Below, one piece after another: positions 967 to 29,824 of a stretch of 35,881 nucleotides of DNA. The translations under genes were made by a program, and so were the position numbers. The stretch's first letter is position 1, and the number at the start of each line of letters is the position of its first letter. The stretch comes from Malaciobacter halophilus (GTDB lineage: Bacteria > Campylobacterota > Campylobacteria > Campylobacterales > Arcobacteraceae): assembly GCF_002837275.1 (NCBI RefSeq), contig NZ_NXIF01000045.1, positions 1 through 35,881 on the forward strand, written 5' to 3'. Under the pieces are notes generated by a model that searched no databases, had not been told where the DNA came from, and saw only the letters and a program-made list of their open reading frames with translations.

Positions 967-2373
967 ATGAAAGATTTTGCAATAATAGGAGCAGGTATTG
1001 GTGGAACAGCTTCTGCTTTGGCACTAAGTAAGAAGTTTGACATAACACTATTTGAAAAAGAGCCTTATTTAGGAGGTTGTTCTTCTACTTATAAAAGAGG
1101 GAAATATTTTTACAACTCAGGAGCTACAACTTTTGCTGGATACCAAGATGGTACTTTTTTATATGAATTTTTTAAAAAACATAAAGTAGAGTTTAATAAA
1201 CAACTTTTAGACTCTTCTTTAACAGTATTAATCAATGATAAGAAAATAAGAAGATTAAGAGATTTAGAAGCTTTTGTTGATGAGATTAATGGAGTGTTTT
1301 ACCATGAAAAGAATAAAGAGTTTTATGAGTTGATATTTTCAATTACTAATAGATTTTTTCAGATTGATGATTACTATTATTCAAATAAAGATTTATTATC
1401 AAAAGCAAAATCTTTGTACTCTTTTAAAAATCTATTTTTTGAATTCTCTTCTTTACTTTTTGTTAAAGCAGATAAGTTTATACATAAGTTTTTTAATGGG
1501 GTTTCAAAAGAGTATTTAGATTATATAGATAATCAAGTATTAATAGTATCTCAAGCAAGAACAAATGAGATAAATTTTTTAACATGTGCTTTAGCTCTTG
1601 GATATCAGTTTATGAGTAATTATTATGTTTATGGAGGTATGGGAACTTTATTTGATTCAATGGCAGAAAAAATAGATGATGTAAGAACAAATGAGTTTAT
1701 ACAAAACATAGAAAAAAAAGATGATAGTTTTGTAGTTCATACAAAAAATAATAGTTCACTAAATACAAAAAATATAGTACTAAATAGTTCTTTATTTGAT
1801 AGTGCACATCTATTTGAAGATAAAAAAATAAAAGAGTATATAAATAGATATAAAAAGTTTGATTTTGGTTTATCTGCTTTTATGGTTTATATGAAATTAG
1901 ATACAAATAAAACTTTTGACCATCACTATCAAATTATTTTGCCAAATAGATTAAAACATACTGTATCTAACTCTATGTTTGTATCTTTTTCTAGTAGTGA
2001 TGATGAAAAAATGAAAGGAAGTGTTACTATTTCTATACATACAAATAGTGCATTTTTTAAAGATGGAACAAAAGAGAAAAAACAAGAGTTACTAGCTATA
2101 ATAAAAAAGATTGTATGTGAAAAACTAAATATTCACGAGAATGAGATTATTAAATGTTTTGCAGCAACTCCACAGACTTTTAAAAGATACATTAATAGAA
2201 CAAGTTTAGGTGGAATTGCAGTAAGATATGAAAATTTAATTTATAAACTTCCTTCAAATGATACTCCCATAAAAGGTTTATATAATGTAGGAGATACTAC
2301 ATTTGCAGCTCAAGGTTGGCCTGGAGTTATGCTTGGAGTTAGAAATTTACAAAGGTTAATATGCAAAATATAG
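967..2373 (+). CDS. FAD-dependent oxidoreductase, phytoene desaturase/CrtISO-like
   Basis: Flavoprotein of the amine-oxidase/CrtI superfamily, 468 residues. The N-terminus has the Rossmann dinucleotide motif (IIGAGIGGTASALAL, residues 5-19) followed by the FEKEPYLGG continuation. The C-terminus has the typical FAD-closing segment (GLYNVGDTTFAAQGWPGV, about residues 437-454). Substrate cannot be read from the sequence: carotenoid or other polyene desaturation/isomerisation fits the family, and the one-base spacing after hemH also allows a role connected to porphyrins, which is inference only. The next gene overlaps its 3' end by 13 bases, so the two are probably translationally coupled. Confidence 0.8.
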   Translation: MKDFAIIGAGIGGTASALALSKKFDITLFEKEPYLGGCSSTYKRGKYFYNSGATTFAGYQDGTFLYEFFKKHKVEFNKQLLDSSLTVLINDKKIRRLRDLEAFVDEINGVFYHEKNKEFYELIFSITNRFFQIDDYYYSNKDLLSKAKSLYSFKNLFFEFSSLLFVKADKFIHKFFNGVSKEYLDYIDNQVLIVSQARTNEINFLTCALALGYQFMSNYYVYGGMGTLFDSMAEKIDDVRTNEFIQNIEKKDDSFVVHTKNNSSLNTKNIVLNSSLFDSAHLFEDKKIKEYINRYKKFDFGLSAFMVYMKLDTNKTFDHHYQIILPNRLKHTVSNSMFVSFSSSDDEKMKGSVTISIHTNSAFFKDGTKEKKQELLAIIKKIVCEKLNIHENEIIKCFAATPQTFKRYINRTSLGGIAVRYENLIYKLPSNDTPIKGLYNVGDTTFAAQGWPGVMLGVRNLQRLICKI

Positions 2374-25251: not shown

Positions 25252-26004
25252 GTGGAAAACTATTTTGATAAAGAGTTTGAATTAAGATTTTTTGAGATGA
25301 ATAGATTAGGGGAGGCTTCTCCTATTGCTATTTTGACTTTGCTTCAAGAAGCTGCTGCTGAGCATTGTCATTATGCTGGGCATAATCTTTTGTCTTTGAT
25401 GTCAGAAAATCTTGGATGGGTATTGTTATCTGGCGTGATGCAAATGCAACGCTATCCTTTGTATAAAGAGAAAATTATTATTAGAACTTGGATATCAAAA
25501 TATCATGCTATTAGAGGAGTTCGTGAAAATATTATCTATGATGAAAACTACAATATTATAGGAAGAGCTAGGGGTTTATGGCTTTTTTATGATATAAAAA
25601 GAAGAAGACCAAGAAAAATACATCCAGACTTTTTAAAAAGATGGTCATCTTATGATTTGATTTCTTTAAATCACACTATAACAGATAAAATTGAACCACT
25701 TGATTCTTTTGAATATAGAAAAGAGTTTAAAGTAAATATGTACGATACTGATACAAATAAGCATGTAAATAATCTTAGATATTTACAATGGCTAATTGAA
25801 TCAATACCTGATGAGGTACTAAATAATTACTATTTGTATTTTATTGATGGGCGTTTTATATCAGAAGCCCAGTATGGTGATATAATTTTATCTTCTACAA
25901 AAAAAGATGTAACTGATAACTCTTTTATTCATACAATTCAAATAAAAGGAACAAATAAAGTTTGTGCCACTGGAAAAACCATATGGAAAAAAATAGAAAA
26001 ATAG
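25252..26004 (+). CDS. Acyl-ACP thioesterase (FatA/FatB-like family)
   Basis: Double hot-dog thioesterase of 250 residues that releases fatty acids from acyl-ACP or acyl-CoA. The second half carries the catalytic motif MYDTDTNKHVNNLRYLQW (about residues 163-180), matching the Asn-x-His region of plant-type FAT enzymes; the first half has GEASPIAILTLLQEAAAEHC and the RTWISKYHAIRG strand. The GTG start is set by AAGGAG nine bases upstream, and no ATG lies nearby. It stands alone: no fatty-acid genes are adjacent, so its substrate chain length and purpose are open. It ends seven bases from the oppositely oriented diiron-protein gene. Confidence 0.87.
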   Translation: MENYFDKEFELRFFEMNRLGEASPIAILTLLQEAAAEHCHYAGHNLLSLMSENLGWVLLSGVMQMQRYPLYKEKIIIRTWISKYHAIRGVRENIIYDENYNIIGRARGLWLFYDIKRRRPRKIHPDFLKRWSSYDLISLNHTITDKIEPLDSFEYRKEFKVNMYDTDTNKHVNNLRYLQWLIESIPDEVLNNYYLYFIDGRFISEAQYGDIILSSTKKDVTDNSFIHTIQIKGTNKVCATGKTIWKKIEK

Positions 26005-26011
26005 TTTTTAT

Positions 26012-26479
26012 TTAAAACTCTGCACTTTGTACCCAATTATTTGGTTCTTGTATAAAATGAACAATCTCTTCTAATATAGCTTTATGTTTTAACTCTTCTT
26101 TTGCTATATCTATAAAAGCAGTTTTTTCTTCTTCATCTTCAAGTTCATTAGCTTTATCAATATAAAATTGGTAAGAGTCTTCTTCTCTTTTTATTGCATC
26201 TTCATAAAATTTAACTTGCTCTGCATCAAAAGTTACACTATCTCTTTGTTCATTTAATGTTTCAAATATTGTTTTTGTATCTGTTGAAATATCAATAGAT
26301 TTAAAATCTGAACCATCTTTATCTCTCATGCTTTTAAAAACATTATAGTGTTGTACTTCAGCTTCAGCTAAAATATCAAATACTTTTTTTAAGCCATTAT
26401 TAGGTGCTTTTGAAGCTAAATAATTGTAGTAAGCTTCTCCATCTTTTTCAACTTTCATAGCATAATCATAAACATTCAT
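26012..26479 (-). CDS. Rubrerythrin-like ferritin-fold diiron protein
   Basis: Four-helix-bundle protein of 155 residues with the pattern of a diiron site: Glu in KVEKDGEAYYNYLA (helix 1), ExxH in AEAEVQHYNVF (helix 2), Glu in AIKREEDSYQFY (helix 3) and ExxH in IAKEELKHKAILEE (helix 4). No rubredoxin domain follows, so it is a ferritin-like/rubrerythrin-core protein rather than full rubrerythrin. Family members handle peroxide, oxygen or iron in the cytoplasm; the exact reaction is not readable. GGGAG precedes the ATG. Its promoter is overlapped by an 18-base perfect palindrome, pointing to repressor control, plausibly redox- or metal-responsive. Confidence 0.87.
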   Translation of the reverse strand: MNVYDYAMKVEKDGEAYYNYLASKAPNNGLKKVFDILAEAEVQHYNVFKSMRDKDGSDFKSIDISTDTKTIFETLNEQRDSVTFDAEQVKFYEDAIKREEDSYQFYIDKANELEDEEEKTAFIDIAKEELKHKAILEEIVHFIQEPNNWVQSAEF

Positions 26480-26502
26480 AGTAACTCCCTTTTATGTTCT
26501 TT

Positions 26503-26533
26503 TAATCTTAGCTAAGATTAATTATGTTGTCAA
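26503..26533 (-). promoter_or_regulatory. Promoter with overlapping palindromic operator of the diiron-protein gene
   Basis: On the - strand TTGACA (26533-26528) and TAAGAT (26510-26505) are 17 bases apart. The perfect 18-base palindrome TAATCTTAGCTAAGATTA (26503-26520) includes the -10 box, so a dimeric protein bound there would block RNA polymerase. The palindrome is 24 bases before the ATG. No other copy was noticed in the window; the binding protein is unknown. Confidence 0.7.
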
Positions 26534-26623
26534 TATCTATGAGTAAAAGAGTAGTAGTTTAATAAATTAGTTAGTAAAAGTTTGTTATTAGTATCATATA
26601 TATAATATACTAAAAGGTCTAAT

Positions 26624-27064
26624 TTGAAAATAGATTTACAAAATAAAACATATATTACAAAAGCAGTTATTAATACATATTTTTTTGAAAATAGAAATAT
26701 AGCACTAGAAAAAAAACTTTTTCATAAAATTACACTTTTTTTAAAAGATTTTGATTCAGGCTTAGAGTATGAAGAAAATCCTGTTTATACCCAAATTATA
26801 TTGGATTGGTATAATTTGAAGTTGCCAAATCCATCAGAACTTCACGGTTTAGATTTAAGTCACAAAAACTATTGTAATGCAGAGGGGTCAATTTATCTTG
26901 GTTATGCTTATAATTGGTGTGATGTTGAATATCTAAGATTTTCAAAAAAGAGTGAAAACTCTTTTTTTATTGATGGTAAAATTAATATAGAGTTTGAAAA
27001 TGAGCAAATTGCTCAAAATGAAGAGTTTATTTTTAAAACAGTTTGTGTTTATGAAAATAACTAA
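26624..27064 (+). CDS. Hypothetical protein
   Basis: No family recognised. The 146-residue protein has no signal peptide or membrane segment and is rich in Asn, Glu and aromatic residues (for example YLGYAYNWCDVEYLRF, about residues 90-105), giving an impression of a mainly beta, cytoplasmic protein. There is no ATG in the N-terminal half; the TTG at 26624 is chosen because AAGG lies eight bases upstream. A GNAT gene begins 18 bases after its stop and is probably cotranscribed. An immunity or antitoxin role is not supported by anything visible. Confidence 0.65.
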   Translation: MKIDLQNKTYITKAVINTYFFENRNIALEKKLFHKITLFLKDFDSGLEYEENPVYTQIILDWYNLKLPNPSELHGLDLSHKNYCNAEGSIYLGYAYNWCDVEYLRFSKKSENSFFIDGKINIEFENEQIAQNEEFIFKTVCVYENN

Positions 27065-27082
27065 AATTATTAAAGTAAAAAA

Positions 27083-27565
27083 ATGACTATTACAACAGCG
27101 AAATTAGATGATGCTAAAAATATTGCAAAAATAATTACAAAAACATGGGAAACTGCATTTGAAGATATTGTGTCTTCTAAAGATAGTAAAAAAGATGAAA
27201 CTTTTCTTACAACTATTATGAAAAATAACATTTCAAAAAATTTAGAAAAAATTTTTATATTAAAAGATAAAAATAGAGTAGTTGGATTTATTTCTGGAGT
27301 TGAAACTAAGTGCTTAAGTACATATGAAATCAAAGGTTTATATATACTACCTAAGTACCAAGGACTAGGATATGGGAAAGTACTTCTTGATACAATAATA
27401 GAATATGCAAAACAGTTTTCTTATAAAAAGATTTATCTTCAAACCTTAAAAGGTGCAAAAAACAATATTTTTTATGAAAGATATGGATTTAAAATAGAAG
27501 ATGAATTTATGTTAAAACTTGGTAATAATAGTTATAAAGGTATTAGTTTTATTAAAAATATTTAA
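27083..27565 (+). CDS. GNAT-family N-acetyltransferase
   Basis: Acetyl-CoA-dependent transferase of 160 residues. The acetyl-CoA-binding motif A reads GLYILPKYQGLGYGKVLLD (about residues 89-107) with the QGLGYG loop, and motif B is YERYGFKIED (about 131-140). The N-terminal TAKLDDAKNIAKIIT is the usual GNAT first strand and helix. Substrate (small molecule, peptide or protein N-terminus) cannot be inferred. It is 18 bases downstream of the hypothetical gene at 26624. The ribosome binding site is weak (TTAAAGTAAAAAA), which would fit translational coupling. Confidence 0.85.
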   Translation: MTITTAKLDDAKNIAKIITKTWETAFEDIVSSKDSKKDETFLTTIMKNNISKNLEKIFILKDKNRVVGFISGVETKCLSTYEIKGLYILPKYQGLGYGKVLLDTIIEYAKQFSYKKIYLQTLKGAKNNIFYERYGFKIEDEFMLKLGNNSYKGISFIKNI

Positions 27566-27635
27566 TTTAGTAGTTTTAAAAGCTATTATCTAATTATTAA
27601 ATAATTTTTATTTAGGTAAACTTTTTAAAATTTAT

Positions 27636-27768
27636 TTCTCAGGGCAAGGTGAAATTCCTTACTGGTGGTAACTATAATGATATAGAAGTCCACGAGCGCT
27701 TTATTTATAAAGGTCAGCAGATTTGGTGAGAATCCAAAACCAACAGTTAAAGTCTGGATGGAAGAGAA
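27636..27768 (+). ncRNA. FMN riboswitch (RFN element)
   Basis: The conserved RFN segments appear in order: TTCTCAGGGCAAGGTGAAAT at the 5' end, ACTGGTGGTA, the AGTCCACGAGCG block, a variable stem, GGTCAGCAGATTTGGTGAGA, CCAAAACCAACAGT, and AGTCTGGATGGAAGAGAA at the 3' end. P1 pairs TTCTC (27636-27640) with GAGAA (27764-27768). In this element class FMN binding lowers expression of riboflavin synthesis or transport genes. It is about 100 bases upstream of the truncated ribB, and no other gene lies between. All recognisable aptamer blocks look intact. Confidence 0.95.
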
Positions 27769-27824
27769 AATAGTATTTATCTTTTTATTGTTAAATTATT
27801 AGGATAATATTGCTTTTTGCATTA

Positions 27825-27861
27825 GCCCTGATTCAATAAGTTTTACTTTAAAATAAAGGTA
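27825..27861 (+). promoter_or_regulatory. Expression platform of the FMN riboswitch
   Basis: GCCCTGA at 27825-27831 is the exact complement of TCAGGGC at 27639-27645 in the aptamer 5' strand, so it can pair with it when FMN is absent. Downstream, TACTTTA/TAAAGGTA (about 27844-27861) forms a small hairpin that covers the AAAGG ribosome binding site (27855-27859). No T-run terminator is present. This points to translational control; the alternative pairing is inference from complementarity. Confidence 0.6.
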
Positions 27862-27869
27862 TTACTAAA

Positions 27870-28328
27870 ATGAATCAATCTCTTATGAAAAATGATTTTA
27901 AGTTAAAAGTTCAAGAGCTTAATTTAACTATGATGACCAAGGATAATAATTCAAAATTTCAAACACCATTTACTATTTCAATTGAAGCAAAAGATAATAT
28001 AACAACAGGTGTTAGTGCAAAAGATAGAGTTACTACTATAAAAGCAGCAATTTCACAAAATGGAAAATCAAAAATAATCTCTCCTGGGCATATTTTTCCT
28101 TTAAGAGCAAATGAAAAAGGTGTATTAGGCAGACAAGGACATACTGAAGCTAGTATTGACTTGATGAAATTGTCTAAACTTGAGCCTTGTGCTGTTTTAT
28201 GTGAGATTACAAATCCAGACGGAACAATGGCAAAAGGTAATCAAATAAAAGAGTTCTCAAAAAAATACAGTATGCCAGTAATTAGTGTTGATGATATTAT
28301 AAGATATTTGAAATATTATAGTATCTAA
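27870..28328 (+). CDS. ribB: Truncated 3,4-dihydroxy-2-butanone 4-phosphate synthase (RibB) lacking the N-terminal catalytic loop
   Basis: RibB normally converts ribulose 5-phosphate to the four-carbon riboflavin precursor. This 152-residue protein starts MNQSL like proteobacterial RibB and then joins directly to the middle of the enzyme (LNLTMMTKDNN, residues about 20-30). About 65 residues are missing, including the DDEDRENEGD acidic loop that supplies catalytic and metal-binding residues. The rest is well kept: ITTGVSAKDRVTTIKAA, PGHIFPLRA, GHTEASIDL (metal His) and AVLCEITNPDGTMAKG. An in-frame stop at 27849 rules out a longer frame from upstream, and no DDEDRENEG-like code occurs in any frame between 27566 and 27870. 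AAAGG precedes the ATG. Either a decayed copy or a repurposed protein. Confidence 0.8.
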   Translation: MNQSLMKNDFKLKVQELNLTMMTKDNNSKFQTPFTISIEAKDNITTGVSAKDRVTTIKAAISQNGKSKIISPGHIFPLRANEKGVLGRQGHTEASIDLMKLSKLEPCAVLCEITNPDGTMAKGNQIKEFSKKYSMPVISVDDIIRYLKYYSI

Positions 28329-28483: not shown

Positions 28484-29824
28484 ATGTTAGTGTTTATTTT
28501 GTTGATTGCAATTGCCTTTATTGTTTTTGCTACGAGTAAGCTAAAGTTACATCCATTTATAGCATTACTTATTGCAGCATATGGAATTGCAGTAAGTGTA
28601 GGTATGGGGTACACTGAAATAGCTACTACTATAACAAAAGGTTTTGGTGGTATTCTTGCATACATAGGTATAGTAATAGTATTAGGTACAATAATTGGAG
28701 TAATACTTGAGAAAAGTGGTGCTGCTATTAAAATGGCAGATGTAATACTTAAAATTGTTGGAAAAAAGCGACCTGTTCTTGCAATGTCAATAATAGGATA
28801 TATTGTTTCTGTTCCTGTTTTCTGTGATAGTGGATTTGTTATTTTAAATGCACTAAAACGTTCAATGGTTAGACAATTAAAAGTTTCAGGTGTTGCCATG
28901 AGTGTTGCTTTAGCAACTGGTCTTTTTGCGACACATACTTTAGTTCCACCAACTCCAGGGCCAATTGCTGCAGCTGGAAACTTGATGGTAGATAACTTAG
29001 GTCTTGTGATTATTTTTGGTATCTTAATATCAATTATTACTATGTTAGCAGGTTATTTTTGGGCTGTACGCTCTGGTAAAATTTATACAAATGGTGAAGA
29101 TTCACTTGTGGATTTAGAAAAAGATAGTGAAGTTTTAGAAAAGTATGGAGAGTTACCAAGTACTTTTAAAGCTTTTGCTCCTATTTTTATACCAATTTTA
29201 CTTATGGCAGTTGCAAGTATTGTAAAGCTTCTATTTGCAGATATGAGCGATACTATTTTATATAAACTGTTTATCTTTTTAGGTAATCCTACAAATGCAC
29301 TATTTATTGGACTTTTGTTTGCTACAATGCTTTTACCAAAATTTGATGAAGAGAGATTATCTGGTTGGGTTGGAGAAGGTATTAAAAATGCAGGTGAAAT
29401 ATTAATTATTACTGGTTCAGGTGGTGCTTTAGGTGCTGTATTAAAAGCTAGTGGAATTGGTACATATTTAGGTGATGCTTTGCAAACCTTAAGTCTTGGT
29501 ATTCTTGTACCTTTTATAATTTCTGCTGCATTAAAATCAGCTCAAGGTTCTTCTACAACTGCATTGGTAGTTACATCAACTATAATTTATCCTTTACTTG
29601 CAAACTTAGGATTAGATAGTGAGATGGGAAAAGTTTTAACTGTTATGGCTATTGGAGCAGGAGCTATGACTGTTAGTCATGCAAATGATAGTTTCTTCTG
29701 GGTTGTTTCTAGATTTAGTCAAATGGACGTAGCAACTGCTTATAAATCTTATACAATGGCTACTTTAGTTCAAGGTTTAGTAACAATTGCAATTGTTTAT
29801 ATTTTAGCAGGTATTTTACTTTAA
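28484..29824 (+). CDS. GntP-family gluconate/organic-acid permease
   Basis: Inner-membrane proton symporter of 446 residues with about 12-14 hydrophobic segments. Family marks are KLHPFIALLIAAYGIAVSVGMG near the start (shown for its conserved HPF), LGTIIGVILEKSGAA, VPVFCDSGFVIL, the THTLVPPTPGPIAAA loop, and the C-terminal AGAMTVSHANDSFFWVVS. The ATG at 28484 is preferred to an in-frame TTG at 28460 because AAGGAG lies at 28473-28478. Gluconate, glycerate or another sugar acid are possible substrates; no kinase or dehydratase gene is next to it to decide. It is followed by a strong terminator. Confidence 0.9.
   Translation: MLVFILLIAIAFIVFATSKLKLHPFIALLIAAYGIAVSVGMGYTEIATTITKGFGGILAYIGIVIVLGTIIGVILEKSGAAIKMADVILKIVGKKRPVLAMSIIGYIVSVPVFCDSGFVILNALKRSMVRQLKVSGVAMSVALATGLFATHTLVPPTPGPIAAAGNLMVDNLGLVIIFGILISIITMLAGYFWAVRSGKIYTNGEDSLVDLEKDSEVLEKYGELPSTFKAFAPIFIPILLMAVASIVKLLFADMSDTILYKLFIFLGNPTNALFIGLLFATMLLPKFDEERLSGWVGEGIKNAGEILIITGSGGALGAVLKASGIGTYLGDALQTLSLGILVPFIISAALKSAQGSSTTALVVTSTIIYPLLANLGLDSEMGKVLTVMAIGAGAMTVSHANDSFFWVVSRFSQMDVATAYKSYTMATLVQGLVTIAIVYILAGILL

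Follow-up and report, generated by a model that had tools for sequence, protein, structure and literature searches.

The active site of DHBP synthase (RibB) is assembled from two chains. For the V. cholerae enzyme, the available part of PMC5228156 assigns loop 1 (34-41), loop 2 (82-98) and loop 3 (175-185) to one chain and loops 4 and 5 (103-111, 132-138) to the other; Glu-39 and Glu-41 touch the substrate via a water, and in simulations Asp-43 bonds the substrate after ion entry. The stand-alone ribB of V. cholerae is described, in the portion of PMC5312566 accessible to us, as the only riboflavin supply unit, among those studied, that is repressed by riboflavin. According to the accessible sections of PMC10012899, A. 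salmonicida carries a two-domain protein with RibB activity only (RibBX) beside an FMN-riboswitch ribB.

Here we describe a locus of Malaciobacter halophilus in which an FMN riboswitch precedes a ribB that lacks an internal block (Table 1). The window, by which we mean the whole 35,881-nt stretch that was analysed, corresponds to contig C65 in a draft genome (G000) of 2.75 Mb and 111 contigs; G001-G119 denote other genomes, and L and C stand for locus and contig. Our best explanation, which we hold with considerable confidence, is that a recent internal deletion, 177 nt long and in frame, inactivated an accessory ribB under FMN-riboswitch control.

Table 1. Features of the riboswitch-ribB locus in the window and of the second damaged locus found in the family.
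Feature	Position	Strand	Basis or remark
FMN riboswitch aptamer (RFN element), intact	27631..27773	+	Rfam RF00050, full model
Presumed expression platform	27774..27869	+	GCCCTGATTC inside; conserved among relatives
Putative ribosome binding site AAAGG	27855..27859	+	Sequence and leader alignment; same in several relatives
ribB with in-frame 59-codon internal deletion	27870..28328	+	ORF, PF00926, alignment with full-length relatives
Deletion junction AAAGTTCAA, codons 13-15	27906..27914	+	Fits either flank of the missing block
Intact FMN aptamer before broken ribB	L149 (G108:C6:374500-377000), aptamer 1180-1324	-	Second decay case in the family

From its ATG at 27870, the window ribB encodes 152 aa, compared with about 211 aa in full-length relatives. 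Alignment to the 211-aa protein of the congener G003 resolves the difference into a single in-frame gap of 59 codons (177 nt); the start, its putative ribosome binding site and roughly the first twelve residues are kept, and the frame has no stop or frameshift. An earlier sequence-only reading of this DNA had reported an open RibB frame with a good ribosome binding site, which agrees with the 152-aa ORF and the putative AAAGG. It had also proposed an in-frame loss, and this holds, but its estimate of about 65 residues (195 bases) was a little too large, and the junction lies between MNQSLMKNDFKLKVQ and ELNLTMM rather than right after MNQSL, where the gap to LNLTMM had been placed. The shortened protein matches PF00926 (DHBP synthase, RibB) with 169 bits (cut-off 26.4) over profile positions 58-191 of 191 only. 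Against the equivalog domain TIGR00506 it scores 145.2 bits, below the cut-off of 177.45, whereas the full-length G003 protein reaches 237.6. Over the 137 retained codons, amino-acid identity to 24 relatives is 63-77%.

The part that is gone includes active-site loop 1. The motif RE[ND]EAD is present in all 24 other aligned ribB copies and absent from the window copy. In a wider contig scan (the best 80 of 110 loci), the acidic-loop motif stands in the same open frame at 79 of the 80 loci, and the remaining one, L060, has the variant DDESRENEVD as judged by eye. By alignment, the numbering of G003 runs three residues behind that of a solved DHBP synthase (residue 11 corresponds to residue 14); this offset puts the RENEAD of G003 at 38-43, in agreement with the available part of PMC5228156, so that the window protein lacks loop 1 and Asp-43. 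As the sequence-only reading had claimed, the acidic loop (residues 31-40 of G003) falls inside the deleted block, while GHTEA and CEIT are both present in the window protein; by alignment it also keeps the loop 2 to 5 regions, along with the GHTEA histidine. Compared with intact orthologues, the gene thus carries a likely disabling lesion, a 59-codon deletion that takes loop 1. With this loop and about 28% of the chain gone, the short product should not make 3,4-dihydroxy-2-butanone 4-phosphate, and we infer that it is without enzyme activity.

The ends of the missing block offer a possible route for its loss. We compared the two flanks as 12-mers in 14 of the 24 relatives, taking the best of a few neighbouring registers: 9-10 of the 12 positions match in four relatives, 8 in five and 5-7 in the other five. 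The best matches are found in G003 (9), G004 (9), G005 (10) and G099 (10), and that of G099 is the best of 447 registers. The junction and this flank similarity are compatible with a deletion between short direct repeats, although the support is uneven among relatives. Slippage or recombination between short AAAGTT-like direct repeats at the block ends would perhaps have removed the 177 nt.

The leader looks untouched. A covariance-model search scored the aptamer at 121.5 bits (RF00050 gathering score 66.2) over model positions 1-138 of 138, and the window aptamer breaks none of the 92 columns that are invariant among 24 other leaders, in line with the intact riboswitch blocks reported before. 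It is also the sole match found in a genome-wide RF00050 search of G000. Downstream, GCCCTGATTC (27825-27834) is kept in 25 of 25 aligned leaders. The aptamer's 5' strand contains the complement of the first seven bases of this element, TCAGGGC (27639-27645), and five of these seven are paired in the minimum-energy fold of the leader (27641-27645 with 27825-27829), a fold that as a whole is just 1.49 standard deviations better than shuffles. Conservation suggests that the riboswitch, now a still intact regulatory relic of ribB, probably continues to repress the transcript at high FMN; by analogy, the riboflavin repression of V. cholerae ribB may be comparable. The expression platform is 87-90% identical to those of G003, G117 and G119, and the coding part 76-77% to the same genomes. 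We considered separate histories of leader and coding part and drew no conclusion, because G018 and G087 show a similar gap (95.5% vs 83.5%) and there is no rate acceleration.

The gene order around ribB differs between the window and G003. In the G003 locus (L033), a thioesterase is followed by riboswitch-ribB and then by a rubrerythrin. In the window (25252-28328), the thioesterase is followed directly by the rubrerythrin, after which come an ORF without a Pfam match (26624-27064), a GNAT acetyltransferase (27083-27565) and the riboswitch, a difference indicating that the ribB locus moved or was rebuilt. Directly downstream of ribB lies a GntP-family permease (28484-29824) with its own AAGGAG ribosome binding site; we know of no riboflavin link for it.

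The genome encodes a complete second RibB-domain protein, so the full-length ribB or ribBA that the sequence-only reading had proposed to look for is indeed there. This two-domain protein of 343 aa on contig C46 scores 547.6 bits against PRK09314 (NCBIfam; cut-off 432), and the GTP cyclohydrolase II match of its C-terminal part is confined to profile positions 115-164 of 165. The protein is presumably active and would be the source of DHBP synthase in G000, supplying the cell in place of the short product, which without loop 1 would make no 3,4-dihydroxy-2-butanone 4-phosphate. Three further GTP cyclohydrolase II (RibA) matches occur in the genome (C64:27726-28202, C55:39861-40337 and C82:6125-6574), in open frames of 193-213 aa.

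To place the window gene among its relatives, we searched 104 Arcobacteraceae genomes, one per species and with that of the window included. The FMN aptamer occurs in 23 of them, once in each, under stricter filters that can lose weak matches. It stands before a full-length stand-alone ribB in 21 genomes, the two lying together on one short stretch; the other two cases are the window's short gene and a wreck in G108. A PF00926 search of the same genomes scored 22 stand-alone copies, 21 of full length and the window's as the sole short one, and none of the other 103 genomes yielded a form that is 59 codons short. Five of the 104 genomes have no PF00926 match at all, and neither stand-alone ribB nor aptamer was found in the congener G001. 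Stand-alone ribB with its aptamer is therefore distributed patchily in Arcobacteraceae. The PF00926 search also returned two small fragments. One belongs to the G108 wreck. The other, in G081 (profile positions 160-191), was not counted as a decayed gene, because it runs right up to the edge of its contig (G081:C96:16865-16960 of 16960).

The G108 locus is a second decay case. Its aptamer, at 117.5 bits, runs straight into mid-gene ribB sequence. What should lie between, namely expression platform, start and almost all of the gene's first half, is missing; a second block is gone after SPGH, and stops follow. The retained 102-nt ribB block is nevertheless 96% identical to that of G119 (98 of 102). 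In Arcobacteraceae, then, an FMN aptamer can outlast a ribB broken by internal deletions, and the leftover pieces can remain free of further damage for some time; finding an intact aptamer does not prove that the gene works. The sequence-only reading had argued that a pseudogene would usually lose its leader, and this locus defeats the argument. Among the listed titles of the riboswitch, pseudogene, gene-loss and riboflavin literature, we found no description of ribB loss in Arcobacteraceae.

We also used substitution patterns to ask how the retained codons have evolved. The codon model covered the 137 retained codons in 24 sequences, with a base fit that stopped at the iteration limit; G055 was left out because its place differed between two ribB trees. 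In two-ratio fits, with background branch lengths scaled only together, omega is 0.036 on the window branch vs 0.041 in the background (likelihood ratio 0.05), so no relaxation was detected, and the data reject omega = 1 for the window branch (likelihood ratio 20.5). The window omega is rough, since synonymous change on that branch is near saturation (t about 6). The branch model bounds a neutral tail on the window branch to about 0.06-0.1 neutral substitutions per codon, with the log-likelihood dropping by 1.23 at 0.06, 1.70 at 0.08 and 2.19 at 0.10 when kappa, omega and the other branch lengths are held fixed. Relative-rate tests found the window copy significantly faster in none of 25 comparisons (lowest p 0.052, where L055 is the faster). 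At the 57 columns invariant in the 24 other copies, the window differs once (V to T at T23, just after the junction), within the 0-3 differences that other copies show in leave-one-out counts.

Nine residues are private to the window copy, compared with 0 to 20 in the other 24 copies, only G055 (20) lying above nine; this may just reflect the lack of a close relative. Three of the nine (T20, T23 and D25) sit just after the junction; the number is small, but it hints at an end that has stopped fitting the old fold. Support for where the window copy falls in the ribB trees is weak (53-65 around the window copy; 61 and 71 in the codon-model set). In the same trees, ribB of Sulfurospirillum arcachonense (L055) and of a Sulfurospirillum MAG (L054) cluster with that of Arcobacteraceae G003, with node support of 46 by protein and 75 and 66 by DNA, a grouping that may represent transfer between families.

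These patterns have two readings. The deletion may have happened very recently, or the short protein may remain under constraint, and the data do not fully separate the two. The comparison of substitution patterns that the sequence-only reading had proposed shows no relaxation; a young deletion explains this, and so would continued constraint. The clean retained part fits a deletion too young for further damage. It is on this reading that we infer the youth of the deletion.

Because the genome has a complete second copy and G108 offers a parallel wreck, we favour a recent deletion with loss of function; the gene looks like an ordinary one that has begun to decay while the other copy covers for it. 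Three origins had been offered from the letters alone: a recent deletion, an enzyme half complementing a full RibB or RibBA as a mixed dimer, and a non-catalytic protein under FMN control. The first is favoured by the full-length C46 copy, the 21 full-length genes among 22 stand-alone copies and the G108 locus, and the comparison with relatives, likewise proposed at the time, found the short form in the window copy only; the other two origins rank lower, although the lack of relaxation in the retained region leaves them some room.

An assembly error, in which the genome holds a full-length gene and the contig dropped 177 nt, is improbable. A draft in this many contigs invites the suspicion. 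However, the similar flank stretches in relatives span about 6-12 nt, far below the usual word lengths of assembly, the junction lies well inside the 35.9-kb contig, and the genome has no third PF00926 match and hence no separate N-terminal piece.

We consider it very improbable that the short protein pairs with a full-length RibB-domain protein and gives it loops 4 and 5 in trans, as a mixed dimer or an FMN-controlled modulator. Such pairing would draw on an active site lined by loops 4 and 5 of the other chain (available part of PMC5228156), and in the alignments loop 1 is lost, with the loop 2 to 5 regions and the GHTEA histidine kept, in a region without relaxed constraint. Nothing in the data speaks specifically for such a dimer. 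Against it stand the missing 28% or so of the chain, the absence of the short form from the other 103 family genomes searched, and the retained part's identity of 42% to the C46 protein. AlphaFold2 also gives the short protein no confident fold (mean pLDDT 36.0 alone and 45.7 with 9 sequences), to which we attach little weight as there is no full-length control. The more specific proposal, that selection maintains the short RibB under FMN control as a partner chain which lacks its own loop 1 and tunes riboflavin synthesis within a mixed dimer, strikes us as more doubtful still. Least credible of all is that the short protein has acquired a new non-catalytic role, FMN-controlled and unconnected with RibB dimers: the open frame, ribosome binding site, intact riboswitch and low omega would suit it, but the constraint pattern is, contrary to its prediction, still the ancestral enzyme's (one change in the 57 invariant columns), and the short form occurs in one of 104 family genomes searched.

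In summary, and returning to the recent inactivating deletion, the window locus probably shows a redundant gene under riboswitch control in the first stages of decay, and as found it matters little. Its wider meaning lies in annotation. That an aptamer can stay intact after its gene breaks is shown by G108 and suggested by the window gene, so a riboswitch before a gene, even a perfect one, should not count as evidence that the gene works, and naming the window locus ribB would overcount DHBP synthases. Should the short form turn out to be fixed and under selection, it would be a half-enzyme of an unusual kind.

Among comparable systems, the G108 remnant resembles the window locus in having an intact aptamer before a deletion-damaged ribB, with other full-length RibB-domain genes in the genome; it differs in its two large deletions, its stops and the loss of platform and start, whereas the window gene has one in-frame deletion. 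Two-domain RibBA and RibBX proteins, represented here by the C46 protein (PRK09314), have the RibB domain in common with the window gene but, unlike it, C46 combines a full-length RibB domain with a C-terminal part. A further close system is the stand-alone FMN-riboswitch RibB of V. cholerae, A. salmonicida and the Arcobacteraceae relatives. The window leader carries the same aptamer and GCCCTGATTC element as those of its relatives in the family, and the locus shares with that of A. salmonicida, as far as the accessible sections of PMC10012899 describe it, a stand-alone ribB alongside a second RibB-domain protein. Unlike a full-length stand-alone RibB, however, the window gene is missing 59 codons, active-site loop 1 among them.
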